Shown piece after piece: positions 518 to 33,436 of a stretch of DNA of 33,816 nt (within the stretch, counting starts at the first letter, position 1; every line of letters starts with the position of its first letter). Both the position numbers and the translations under genes were made by a program. The DNA comes from Patescibacteria group bacterium (GTDB lineage: Bacteria > Patescibacteriota > Minisyncoccia > Phycocordibacterales > GWA1-40-21), in NCBI GenBank assembly GCA_018968925.1, contig JAGWZI010000008.1, positions 1 to 33,816 of the forward strand, written 5' to 3'. Below the pieces are notes generated by a model that had not been told where the DNA came from, did no database searches, and was given only the letters and a program-made list of their open reading frames with translations.

Positions 518-624
518 AAACAAAAAGCCTATCCCTAGGAACGGCTCGAAGAGCCTATACCGGTTTCCCGATATAACGTCGTAAACGAAACCTAAGGATA
601 GGTTTTTTGTTTACGACGTTTTTT
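518..624 (+). other. Multi-hairpin structured region with two mutually exclusive long stems, upstream of the serine recombinase
   Basis: AACGTCGTAAAC (575-586) / GTTTACGACGTT (609-620) is a 12-bp perfect inverted repeat followed by a T run. AAACAAAAAGCCTATCCCTAGG (518-539) pairs with CCTAAGGATAGGTTTTTTGTTT (591-612) over 22 positions with one G-U and one mismatch. GGCTC-GAA-GAGCC lies at 543-555. Confidence 0.6.
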
Positions 625-826
625 CATCATGCCGTCGATCACTCAACGGTTTAGACTACTTCGTATTTAATTGTCGAATACCATGATAGCTCTTTTTCCA
701 CTATCAGTCTACTGATCATATCGCTGAGTCTTTGTTTTGCTAAGGCCGGTTGCCAACACGTTGCCAACGATCCCCCTCTTAGCAAAACGCTCAAATTGCG
801 TCATCAATGTATACATGGAAAACGTT

Positions 827-8462: not shown

Positions 8463-8486
8463 ACGAGCAGTATAGCAAACCTTTTG

Positions 8487-8559
8487 AGCCACCTCCCGGG
8501 ATTGAACCGGGGACCCCATCTTTACGAAAGATGTGCTCTACCAGCTGAGCTAAGGTGGC
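8487..8559 (-). tRNA. tRNA-Thr(CGT)
   Basis: Minus: GCCACCTTAGCTCAGCTGGTAGAGCACATCTTTCGTAAAGATGGGGTCCCCGGTTCAATCCCGGGAGGTGGC; loop TTCGTAA. Confidence 0.95.
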
Positions 8560-8586
8560 GTGGTATCTTTTTTTCAATCTTGCGGG

Positions 8587-8659
8587 AGCCGTTGACCAGG
8601 ATCGAACTGGTGACCTCGTCATTACCAATGACGTGCTCTACCAACTGAGCTACAACGGC
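8587..8659 (-). tRNA. tRNA-Thr(GGT)
   Basis: Minus: GCCGTTGTAGCTCAGTTGGTAGAGCACGTCATTGGTAATGACGAGGTCACCAGTTCGATCCTGGTCAACGGC; loop TTGGTAA. Confidence 0.95.
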
Positions 8660-8675
8660 ACGTCAAACTTTTCAA

Positions 8676-8699
8676 TCTACCAAAACAGCTACAACGGCA
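8676..8699 (-). repeat. Partial copy of the tRNA-Thr(GGT) 5' half in its own leader
   Basis: Minus TGCCGTTGTAGCTGTTTTGGTAGA vs tRNA TGCCGTTGTAGCTCAGTTGGTAGA: 21/24 identical, only CAG->GTT differs. Confidence 0.85.
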
Positions 8700-8800
8700 T
8701 GGCTTTTCCGAACAAGCTACGCGGTAATGCGGGGCTCGGCAAGCATACTAAGCGATTTTCGGTTTTTTTGCAAAGGAAAAAACGTGCTACAATACCGGGC

Positions 8801-9352
8801 ATGAACCAACGGCTTGGATTCCGCGCGCTCGTCCTCTCCATCGTGAAGGGTCTCCTGCCCGGCCTTGTCCTCGCCGTCGGAGCGGTCGTCGTACTTCTGA
8901 TGAAGAATGCGATCGGCCAGGCGCTCGTCTCGGCGGGCTACGGTGCCGATACGGTCGGCAAAATCCTCCTGTTTGCCGTCGGCGGCCTCTATGTGTTCGC
9001 CGTCATCATGCTCGGCCTCGGGCTCGTCTACGCGCTTATCGGATATTTCAGCACGCGCTTCGGCCTCGATGACTACGCGTTCAAGCTCCACCGCGGTCTC
9101 ATCAGCCGGGACGAAGTGACGATCCCCTATCACCAGATCCAGGATGTGAACGTCGAACAGAGCGTCATCGGCAGGATCTTCGGCGTCGGCACGATGATCA
9201 TCCTCACCGCCGGCCAGGACGATCGCGGCACAAACGGCGAGGAAAACGAGATCGTTTTTCCTATCGTTGACATCGGTGTGGCGAAAGATCTGCAGAAACG
9301 GCTTGAGGTCAAAGGTTCCGTCCAACTCGTCAAACAGGCGCCCGGCAATTGA
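8801..9352 (+). CDS. PH-domain (bPH2/YdbS-like) membrane protein
   Basis: MNQRLGFRALVLSIVKGLLPGLVLAVG..., two TM segments, then YFSTRFGLDDYAFKLHRGLISRDEVTIPYHQIQDVNVEQSVIGRIFGVGTMII. Confidence 0.85.
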   Translation: MNQRLGFRALVLSIVKGLLPGLVLAVGAVVVLLMKNAIGQALVSAGYGADTVGKILLFAVGGLYVFAVIMLGLGLVYALIGYFSTRFGLDDYAFKLHRGLISRDEVTIPYHQIQDVNVEQSVIGRIFGVGTMIILTAGQDDRGTNGEENEIVFPIVDIGVAKDLQKRLEVKGSVQLVKQAPGN

Positions 9353-9384
9353 CCGCCGCCGAGAACACCGCTAGAATGCCGGAT

Positions 9385-10341
9385 ATGAAAAACATCGTCA
9401 CGCTCGGCGGCGCAAGCGGCCATACGCAGGTGCTCCTCGCCCTCAAGGATATGCCGGGCATCCGCATTACCGCCATAACCCCGAGCACCGATTCCGGCGG
9501 CTCGACCGGCATCCTCAAAGACAGCTACGGCGCAAGCGGCTATCTCGGTGACCTGACGAAATGCATCGTCGCGCTCTCAAGGAACGAAAAGCTCGCCCGC
9601 GCGCTCATGTACCGTTATGAAGACGGACCGATCGCAGGACATTCGGTAAAAAATCTCCTCTTCTTCGCGCTCGAGAAGACCGGCTCGCTCGCATCCGCGC
9701 TCCGGACGATGGGCGCGATCGCCGACATCGATGGTCATCGCGTCCTGCCGGTCACGAGCAAGAAGACCGAGCTCCGGGCACGCCTCGCTCTCGGCAGCGT
9801 CATCGCCGGCGAAACGAACATCGACAATATCGCAAAGAACCCCCTTTGGAATCCGAACGTGCATTCCATCAAGGACGTCTACCTCGCGCCGTCCGTTCCC
9901 GCGTCGTCGGACGTCATCGCGGCGCTCGAGACGGCCGATCTCATTATCCTTTCGCCCGGCGATCTCTACTCGAGCATCGTGCCGACCTTATTGCCGAAAG
10001 GCGTTTCCGCGGCCGTCAGGAAAAGCAAGGCACCGGTCGTTCTTTTTCTCAACATCATGACAAAGCAGGGCGAGACGGACCACTACACGGCCGAAGATTT
10101 CATCCGCAACATCGAAAAATATCTCGGCAAGCGCGTCGACCATATCGTCGCGAACAGCGCAAAGATCCCGAAAAAGGCGCTTCTGCGCTATTCGCTCGAA
10201 AGCAAAGTCGAACTCGGCAAATTCGTCAAGAAATCCGACGCGCGCGTCATCACGGCACCCGTGGCCATGACCGATGAGCGCGGCGCCCTCGTCTCCGATC
10301 CGAAAACAATCCGGAAGGTGGTGGAGAGAATTTTGAGATAA
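9385..10341 (+). CDS. yvcK: YvcK/CofD-like family protein (gluconeogenesis factor)
   Basis: MKNIVTLGGASGHTQVLLALKD...ITPSTDSGGSTGILKDSYG..GDLTKC...DLIILSPGDLYSSIVPTLL. Confidence 0.9.
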   Translation: MKNIVTLGGASGHTQVLLALKDMPGIRITAITPSTDSGGSTGILKDSYGASGYLGDLTKCIVALSRNEKLARALMYRYEDGPIAGHSVKNLLFFALEKTGSLASALRTMGAIADIDGHRVLPVTSKKTELRARLALGSVIAGETNIDNIAKNPLWNPNVHSIKDVYLAPSVPASSDVIAALETADLIILSPGDLYSSIVPTLLPKGVSAAVRKSKAPVVLFLNIMTKQGETDHYTAEDFIRNIEKYLGKRVDHIVANSAKIPKKALLRYSLESKVELGKFVKKSDARVITAPVAMTDERGALVSDPKTIRKVVERILR

Positions 10342-10345
10342 CCTG

Positions 10346-10419
10346 CGCGACCGAGCGGACTCGAACCGCCGACCTCCCGCGTGACAGGCGGGCGCTCTAA
10401 CCAACTGAGCTACGATCGC
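10346..10419 (-). tRNA. tRNA-Asp(GTC)
   Basis: Minus: GCGATCGTAGCTCAGTTGGTTAGAGCGCCCGCCTGTCACGCGGGAGGTCGGCGGTTCGAGTCCGCTCGGTCGC; loop CTGTCAC. Confidence 0.95.
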
Positions 10420-10448
10420 ACTATAGCTTCAAACGTTCATTCTTCATC

Positions 10449-10490
10449 TGCAATCGTGGCTTTTGGCTAACCAAGACAGCTGCGATTGCA
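10449..10490 (-). repeat. Hairpin element mimicking the tRNA-Asp 5' half, in its leader
   Basis: Minus TGCAATCGCAGCTGTCTTGGTTAGCCAAAAGCCACGATTGCA: first 24 nt match tRNA-Asp (with preceding T) at 19/24. TGCAATCG/CGATTGCA perfect 8-bp outer stem. Confidence 0.8.
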
Positions 10491-10506
10491 CATAACGAAC
10501 AGCGGA

Positions 10507-10535
10507 AGAATAGCAGAAAAAATCCATTCTTTCAA
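10507..10535 (-). promoter_or_regulatory. Promoter of tRNA-Asp
   Basis: Minus TTGAAA-N17-TATTCT with TGC extension; predicted TSS about 10 nt before the leader mimic. Confidence 0.6.
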
Positions 10536-10560
10536 TGACAATGAGACGGAAACTTTTTTG

Positions 10561-10634
10561 TGTCGGCGGGTGGGATCGAACCACCGACCTTGGGCTTATG
10601 AGTCCCACGCTCTAGCCAACTGAGCTACGCCGAC
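10561..10634 (-). tRNA. tRNA-Met(CAT), elongator type
   Basis: Minus: GTCGGCGTAGCTCAGTTGGCTAGAGCGTGGGACTCATAAGCCCAAGGTCGGTGGTTCGATCCCACCCGCCGAC; paired acceptor 1-72. Confidence 0.93.
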
Positions 10635-10663
10635 AATATGTCATTCCATTTCAACCTGCGCTT

Positions 10664-10687
10664 TCTCGCCAAACAGCCACGCCGACA
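10664..10687 (-). repeat. Partial copy of the tRNA-Met 5' half in its leader
   Basis: Minus TGTCGGCGTGGCTGTTTGGCGAGA vs tRNA TGTCGGCGTAGCTCAGTTGGCTAGA; followed by AAGCGCAGG, which pairs back to CCTGtCG. Confidence 0.78.
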
Positions 10688-10695
10688 GGCAAAAA

Positions 10696-10723
10696 ACTAT
10701 AGCATTTTCTGGCAAAGTTTCAA
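10696..10723 (-). promoter_or_regulatory. Promoter of tRNA-Met
   Basis: Minus TTGAAA-N16-TATAGT with TGC extended -10; predicted TSS (about 10689) coincides with the start of the leader mimic. Confidence 0.65.
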
Positions 10724-10737
10724 ACTCGAACTCCTTG

Positions 10738-10809
10738 TTGCGGGGGTCGGAATCGAACCGACAATCTCCAGGTTATGAGCCTGACGAGCTACCGTTGCTC
10801 TACCCCGCT
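10738..10809 (-). tRNA. Initiator tRNA-fMet(CAT)
   Basis: Minus: AGCGGGGTAGAGCAACGGTAGCTCGTCAGGCTCATAACCTGGAGATTGTCGGTTCGATTCCGACCCCCGCAA; unpaired A1-A72 typical of an initiator. Confidence 0.93.
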
Positions 10810-27036: not shown

Positions 27037-27078
27037 GAGAGAAAGCGCGGGGCGCTTTCGTGCAGGAATCGAAGCCTG
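27031..27078 (+). repeat. Inverted degenerate copy of the tRNA-Arg 3' end, interrupted by a GC hairpin
   Basis: GTGCCC + GAAAGCGC-GGG-GCGCTTTC hairpin (27041-27059) + GCAGGAATCGAAGCCTG; the tRNA-Arg complement is GTGCCCTCGGCAGGAATCGAACCTGC. Confidence 0.7.
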
Positions 27079-27167
27079 ATTGAGCCGAGCTTGGAGCGTA
27101 TCCGCGAACAAGCGAGCCAATCGGGGTACTGACTCTGTAAGAGTCGAGTCGGCCGAATGCACAAAAA

Positions 27168-33319: not shown

Positions 33320-33436
33320 CTAACTTAGACATCTGGCGGAGACGGCGGGGAATTCTCTCCTTACAGAAGCAGTATACCTTTTGGCTAAAATTTTCGCTAA
33401 CTCAATTTTAGGCTCAAAAGGTTTTCGAATCCCAAC

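Follow-up and report, generated by a model that had tools for sequence, protein, structure and literature searches.

Cognate copies of tRNA 5' ends with a rewritten D-arm in tRNA leaders of one order of Patescibacteria

Three tRNA leaders repeat the 5' end of their own tRNA

The window, by which we mean the whole stretch of 33,816 nucleotides analysed here, contains genes for tRNA-Thr, tRNA-Asp and elongator tRNA-Met whose leaders each repeat the first bases of their own tRNA and then diverge from it at nucleotides 13–15 (Table 1). A preliminary description of this DNA had reported a cognate acceptor copy and a common motif in these three leaders, and we find the sequences and coordinates as described there. 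The initiator tRNA-Met, said to be without the element, has a short leader and no copy and provides an internal contrast. The second tRNA-Thr gene, located behind tRNA-Thr(GGT), shares its D-arm class and has no copy of its own. The Asp copy is also self-complementary (TGCAATCG ... CGATTGCA), and a hairpin is predicted there. A LOOT RNA, belonging to a known Rfam family, is found elsewhere in the window.

Table 1. Features of the window on which the analysis draws
Feature	Position	Strand	Basis
LOOT RNA (RF03000)	543-657	(-)	Rfam, 79.5 bits
tRNA-Thr(CGT), second gene behind tRNA-Thr(GGT)	8486..8559	(-)	
tRNA-Thr(GGT), D-arm AGCTCAGTTGG	8585..8659	(-)	ARAGORN and Rfam RF00005
tRNA-Thr(GGT) 5'-end leader copy, GCCGTTGTA-GCTGTTTTGG-TAGATTGAAAAGTTTGACGT, core 8680-8689	8660..8698	(-)	sequence, motif, cognate rank 1/44
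Candidate -10 box TAGTAT for the Thr transcript, ahead of its leader copy	8745..8750	(-)	read from sequence
tRNA-Asp(GTC)	10345..10419	(-)	ARAGORN and Rfam
tRNA-Asp 5'-end leader copy, core GCTGTCTTGG 10471-10480	10449..10490	(-)	sequence, motif, cognate rank
Candidate -10 box TGC-TATTCT, ahead of the Asp leader copy	10508..10513	(-)	read from sequence
tRNA-Met(CAT), elongator	10560..10634	(-)	ARAGORN and Rfam
tRNA-Met 5'-end leader copy, GTCGGCGTG-GCTGTTTGG-CGAGAAAGC	10660..10686	(-)	sequence, cognate rank
Candidate -10 box TGC-TATAGT, 9 nt ahead of the Met leader copy	10696..10701	(-)	sequence and spacing analysis
Initiator tRNA-Met	10737..10809	(-)	
R1 match behind tRNA-Arg	27062-27153	(+)	weak, E 0.0022
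R1 match	33346-33435	(-)	E 4.8e-10

Within the window the bare motif GCTGTYTTGG, allowing up to one mismatch, occurs six times against 3.4 expected, which is not significant. Any test must therefore concern cognate copies, and it is from its tie to such copies that the motif draws its significance.

Leader copies are cognate across the source genome and its relatives

In the 579-kb source genome 45 tRNAs were located and their leaders extracted. When each leader was compared with the 5' end of its own tRNA, the check called for in the preliminary description, the mean score was 13.75, as opposed to 11.31 for shuffled pairings, and none of 20,000 permutations reached the observed cognate score. 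A leader copy of the gene's own 5' end precedes 10 of the 45 tRNA genes (Val-TAC, Val-CAC, Val-GAC, Thr-GGT, Thr-TGT, Phe, Lys-CTT, Ile-TAT, Met and Asp), with two copies each before Val-GAC and Phe; the leader of Lys-TTT, at a contig end, was left out of this count. All ten tRNAs have the D-arm AGCTCAG[CT]TGG, and for nine of the ten core-bearing leaders the own tRNA ranked first of 44. The sequence CTGTTTTGG occurs 14 times in this genome, nine times in copy-bearing leaders and five times elsewhere, in contexts that are not tRNA-like; the reversed pattern occurs six times.

A pattern of the motif, a gap and AGCTCAG was present in 12 of 60 relatives, and the reversed pattern had no match among them. 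Scanning 85,488 species genomes with the motif pattern returned at least 115 stretches. Among the matches listed, nearly all of those from Patescibacteria have cognate copies and those from other phyla have none; because the latter (Flavobacteriaceae, Prevotella, Brevundimonas and others) agree at no more than 5/7 acceptor bases, they were taken as chance. Across 89 distinct Patescibacteria leaders the copied acceptor equals that of the own tRNA at 6.21/7 bases, compared with 3.03/7 for a random tRNA and 5.09/7 for a tRNA with the same anticodon from another species. The latter control reached at most 5.46 in 2,000 permutations, so the copy tracks species-specific acceptor changes. Nucleotides 26–31 of these copies are likewise cognate. 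The derived element said to be shared by three different tRNAs is thus shared genome-wide and among relatives.

When 293 genomes of the class were scanned (about 23 from the order of the window and 270 from other orders, assigned by kinship listing), the exact pattern was found only in the order of the window and in none of the 270. This order consists of tiny, ultra-small bacteria of the Paceibacteria type, and the genomes are assemblies, many of them metagenome-derived. Presence of the leader element is uneven even within a genus, which indicates that it is not essential. Loss of RNase P as a cause of the odd leaders was rejected, as 27 of 30 genomes, the source genome among them, encode RNase P RNA.

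The copied D-arm is rewritten in the same way

Altogether 109 copies were listed, nearly all of Val, Thr, Lys, Phe, Ile, Met, Asp and Ala tRNAs. A copy starts slightly ahead of nucleotide 1, taking in a few bases of the leader, and extends to about nucleotide 30; the cognate acceptor of the preliminary description stands, but the copy reaches beyond both that acceptor and the motif. At positions 13–15 the CAG of the tRNA becomes GTT or GTC, and nucleotides 23–25, in the 3' strand of the D-stem, are swapped for segments such as GATAAC, GGTCGTT or GAATGC. While the D-arm change is indeed shared, as had been proposed, it is better described as CAG13-15 to GTY with replacement of nucleotides 23–25 than by the original motif. 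At least 13 isoacceptors and many species share this three-base change, and the replacement flank on the 3' side of the D-arm is common to different tRNAs of one genome (0/401 permutations). The distance from core to tRNA varies widely. An AAAAG or AAAGC segment, originally presented as part of the architecture, occurs mainly in some leaders of the source genome. Its proposed pairing with GCT-TT, judged by eye, fits only some sequences, and a fixed CUGU-UUUG-GYAG hairpin was rejected as a general fold on the same grounds.

Because the core itself served as the query for most loci and only five genomes (G000, G005, G006, G024 and G054) were sampled independently of it, core conservation among the leaders at large is partly built in. 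In the motif-free sample copies were found by the acceptor, with at most one mismatch in nine bases. At AGCTCAGYTGG tRNAs of these five genomes every acceptor-found copy continues into the rewritten core, or into a form that differs from it by one base, and none has the original D-arm. Core-bearing copies precede 20 of the 42 tRNAs of this class as against 0 of 157 others (p = 3.5e-16). The copy of a Met tRNA with another type of D-arm is rewritten by the same rule (GTTCAATGG to GTTGTTGG).

Exact tandem units, in up to four copies, include the bases before the tRNA (loci L160, L149, L062 and L057). In some upstream or older copies (L122, L160, L054 and genome G001), which come from searches favouring intact cores, the acceptor has drifted and the core is kept. 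This decay of the acceptor beside a lasting core suggests that the core, not the acceptor, is constrained. Retention between species was 0.80 for the acceptor, 0.72 for the post-core segment, 0.51 for the spacer and 0.48 for the upstream sequence, in a comparison of 24 non-independent pairs of species with near-identical tRNAs.

In leader copies of Glu, Arg, Ser and Cys tRNAs the D-arm is broken by GC-rich hairpins (L242, L236, L240, L289 and L053). Possible resemblances to boxA and to CRISPR repeats were noticed as well.

The promoter appears to lie in front of the copy

An extended -10 element (TGnTAnnnT) peaks 9 nt before copy-less tRNAs. In copy-bearing loci it is commonest 9 nt before the first copy, although loci with a recognisable extended -10 are few (nine at 8–10 nt, of 95), and the tract between copy and tRNA has no such peak. 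The candidate -10 box of the Met leader has this same spacing. From the sequence, the promoter appears to stand ahead of the copy, in which case the copy would be transcribed. The spacing further suggests that the copy has replaced the former tRNA start, which seems to be what a local tandem duplication that kept the promoter would produce.

Origin of the copy and possible roles of the rewritten core

Origin of the leader copies by local tandem duplication is well supported. The direct repeat includes flanking bases, namely the leader bases before nucleotide 1, as in a tandem partial gene duplication. The patternless decay expected of such a duplication was not seen; instead, the same GTY change runs throughout the AGCTCAGYTGG class in the five genomes. 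The preliminary description had considered a mobile or duplicative scar, of which the duplicative part is borne out and the mobile part is not, there being no orphan copies beyond chance and no viral copies. Its other suggestions, regulated folding or 5' processing and a decoy for RNase P, are hypothetical roles.

The cognate copy, its rewriting, the promoter spacing and the restriction to one order are computational observations. We tentatively prefer to read them as a tandem 5'-end copy whose rewritten core is kept as a signal in the nascent leader. The 5' end of the tRNA gene would have been copied locally in tandem, and the resulting leader element would have taken the promoter-proximal place, with the intact tRNA downstream, so that the pre-tRNA transcript would begin at or near the copy. 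With CAG at 13–15 changed to GTT or GTC and nucleotides 23–25 replaced, the copy would not fold as a tRNA D-arm. The rewritten core UAGCUGUYUUGGYAG and its 3' flank may be kept since something reads them in the nascent leader as a signal for processing or regulation; the leader would then be removed, presumably by RNase P. The acceptor copy would be mainly a trace of origin. We infer that the core most likely persists because it marks the beginning of the pre-tRNA for recognition or processing. Within-genome likeness of the flanks, which such a reading of the core draws on, could instead stem from gene conversion between leaders.

The copied acceptor could alternatively be the working part. 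In a self-competing switch it would pair with the 3' acceptor strand of the tRNA and displace the native 5' strand, delaying folding and RNase P cleavage and so tuning tRNA output, while the rewritten D-arm would prevent a stable alternative tRNA. Nucleotides 13–15 and 23–25 are D-stem and tertiary-core positions, which agrees with such a switch. An energy model predicts pairing of the 3' strand with the copy at 0.69 versus 0.25 with the native strand; with a shuffled leader the predicted values are 0.01 versus 0.80, and a perfect copy of nucleotides 1–30 would be worse, at 0.91 versus 0.06. Leader pairing is, moreover, a known anti-determinant of RNase P (PMC9433436). The same prediction would, however, follow from any acceptor copy, and the model ignores loop size, tertiary contacts and co-transcriptional folding. 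Acceptors have decayed in some older copies, and GTT and GTC lie mid-table among the 64 triplets in a folding scan. We consider such a switch unlikely. Nor did the triplet scan support a defused D-arm, or pairing with the D-arm of the tRNA itself, as an explanation for GTT or GTC. Since these triplets are unremarkable for folding, the core persists and its flank is genome-specific, recognition of the core in trans seems favoured.

A slightly less doubtful alternative than the switch is that the copies are neutral scars. If slippage or template switching often duplicates tRNA 5' ends in this lineage, intact copies would harm folding and be lost, and copies with a broken D-arm would persist and drift. 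Exact recent tandem units, patchy occurrence within the genus, copies of other tRNAs broken by GC-rich D-arm hairpins and the inverted D-arm duplication at Thr-TGT of G024 are what such a process would leave. It accounts poorly for an identical three-base change across so many isoacceptors and species, for the fact that copies of the AGCTCAGYTGG class in the five genomes were never intact or broken in another way, and for a genome-specific flank and a core that outlasts the acceptor in some copies.

We regard it as very improbable that the core is a DNA element that affects RNA polymerase at tRNA promoters as an operator or an initial-transcribed-sequence element. The copy does start near the inferred transcription start, but the distance between core and tRNA is variable, copies may occur several times in a row, and the core is missing from most tRNA promoters of these cells.

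About as improbable is an attachment-site or transposon scar, left by insertion into the D-arm with target duplication and later deletion. A short insert between direct repeats, palindromic inserts in the copied D-arms of other tRNAs and an RNA element between copies of tRNA 3' ends would agree with it. Against it, longer elements, orphan copies beyond chance and viral matches were all absent, and cognate similarity continues beyond the supposed insertion point. A core site lies within 300 nt upstream of a called tRNA in 111 of 119 cases; of the other eight, six are leaders of cut-off or missed tRNAs, one is a chance match in another phylum and one stands before no tRNA. Phage or plasmid attachment was rejected, as viral scans with the core gave only chance matches without tRNAs and no match of a copy plus tRNA.

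Comparison with known elements

Transfer RNA leaders are usually treated as short, disposable tails. In the window and seven further loci no leader matched any Rfam 15 family at gathering score, only the tRNAs themselves matching, and no T-box covariance-model match was obtained. No description of such a leader element was found in the open-access literature. To judge from sequence comparison, the leader element appears unlike any described RNA element, with no match in Rfam 15 or in open-access papers, and the earlier statement that it is not a T-box holds. A T-box likewise carries a 5' leader sequence corresponding to a particular tRNA; it lies upstream of a protein gene, whereas the leader element lies directly before the tRNA gene itself and has a sense copy in place of specifier and antiterminator. 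Partial tRNA duplications, pseudo-tRNAs and att sites also place a direct repeat of part of a tRNA beside an intact gene. Here, in contrast, it is the 5' end that is copied, and the D-arm is rewritten identically each time. Integrative attachment sites would show a mobile element between the repeats, or copies outside leaders; no element was found there, nor any such copies beyond chance.

Leader pairing brakes RNase P in E. coli (PMC9433436). These anti-determinants share with our leaders a cis leader able to pair with the acceptor end of the tRNA, but they consist of short pairings or hairpins that involve the 3' RCCA or bases close to the site of cleavage (PMC9433436). The leader element, by contrast, copies the cognate 5' end in sense orientation, carries a conserved derived core and is repeated in tandem. 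By this analogy the anti-determinants would be its nearest way of working, not a class to which it belongs.

In a large uncultured lineage, cognate self-copies marked by a single derived motif thus recur at single-copy tRNA genes. Such copies offer a testable case of a leader element specific to tRNA genes and hint at how tRNA supply is managed in very small genomes.

Structured elements behind tRNA genes

In relatives, above all G024, many tRNAs have a structured element downstream that includes a T-arm complement and whose last bases repeat the 3' end of that tRNA exactly. Two kinds of such elements align and covary, with double changes in 21/29 and 19/28 predicted pairs, and neither matches an Rfam 15 family. 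R1, a model of one kind, matches 47 of the 80 genomes scanned in the order, as many as 42 times within a single one. Of 34 inspected matches, 30 lie within 250 nt behind a tRNA, mostly at 30–90 nt. Its closing stem is formed by the T-arm complement paired with the copy of the tRNA's own 3' end (loci L202, L229, L235-L239 and L314-L343). These signals suggest a wider, undescribed class of tRNA-flanking RNAs.

A more speculative extension of the core-reading proposal, which we hold doubtful, is an order-specific regulation in which rewritten sense copies would be read by a factor that varies between genomes, with the structured RNAs on the 3' side as a counterpart. If true, tRNA loci would be flanked by tRNA mimics that control maturation.

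The second 3'-side RNA contains conserved GAAAG-nCGGAG and GAGnCGGGGUCG, with CGUGAC just before the tRNA 3'-end copy; it is the kind with 19/28 covarying pairs (L202, L205, L236, L259, L087, L154, L163, L166, L181 and L239). Near-complete second tRNA copies were observed downstream of Thr-TGT in G024 (L228), Thr-CGT (L164) and Lys-CTT in G054 (L268); they have no 5' acceptor strand and carry an insert in the D-loop or between the D-arm and the anticodon arm, and that of L228 is preceded by the inverted D-arm duplication. At tRNA-Arg(CCT) of G054:C3 (L258) the arrangement is nested: a tRNA-Arg 5' half, whose D-loop contains a palindrome of 40 nt, is followed by an inverted repeat, an intact tRNA-Arg(CCT), the same repeat inverted and then the 3' half of a tRNA-Arg.
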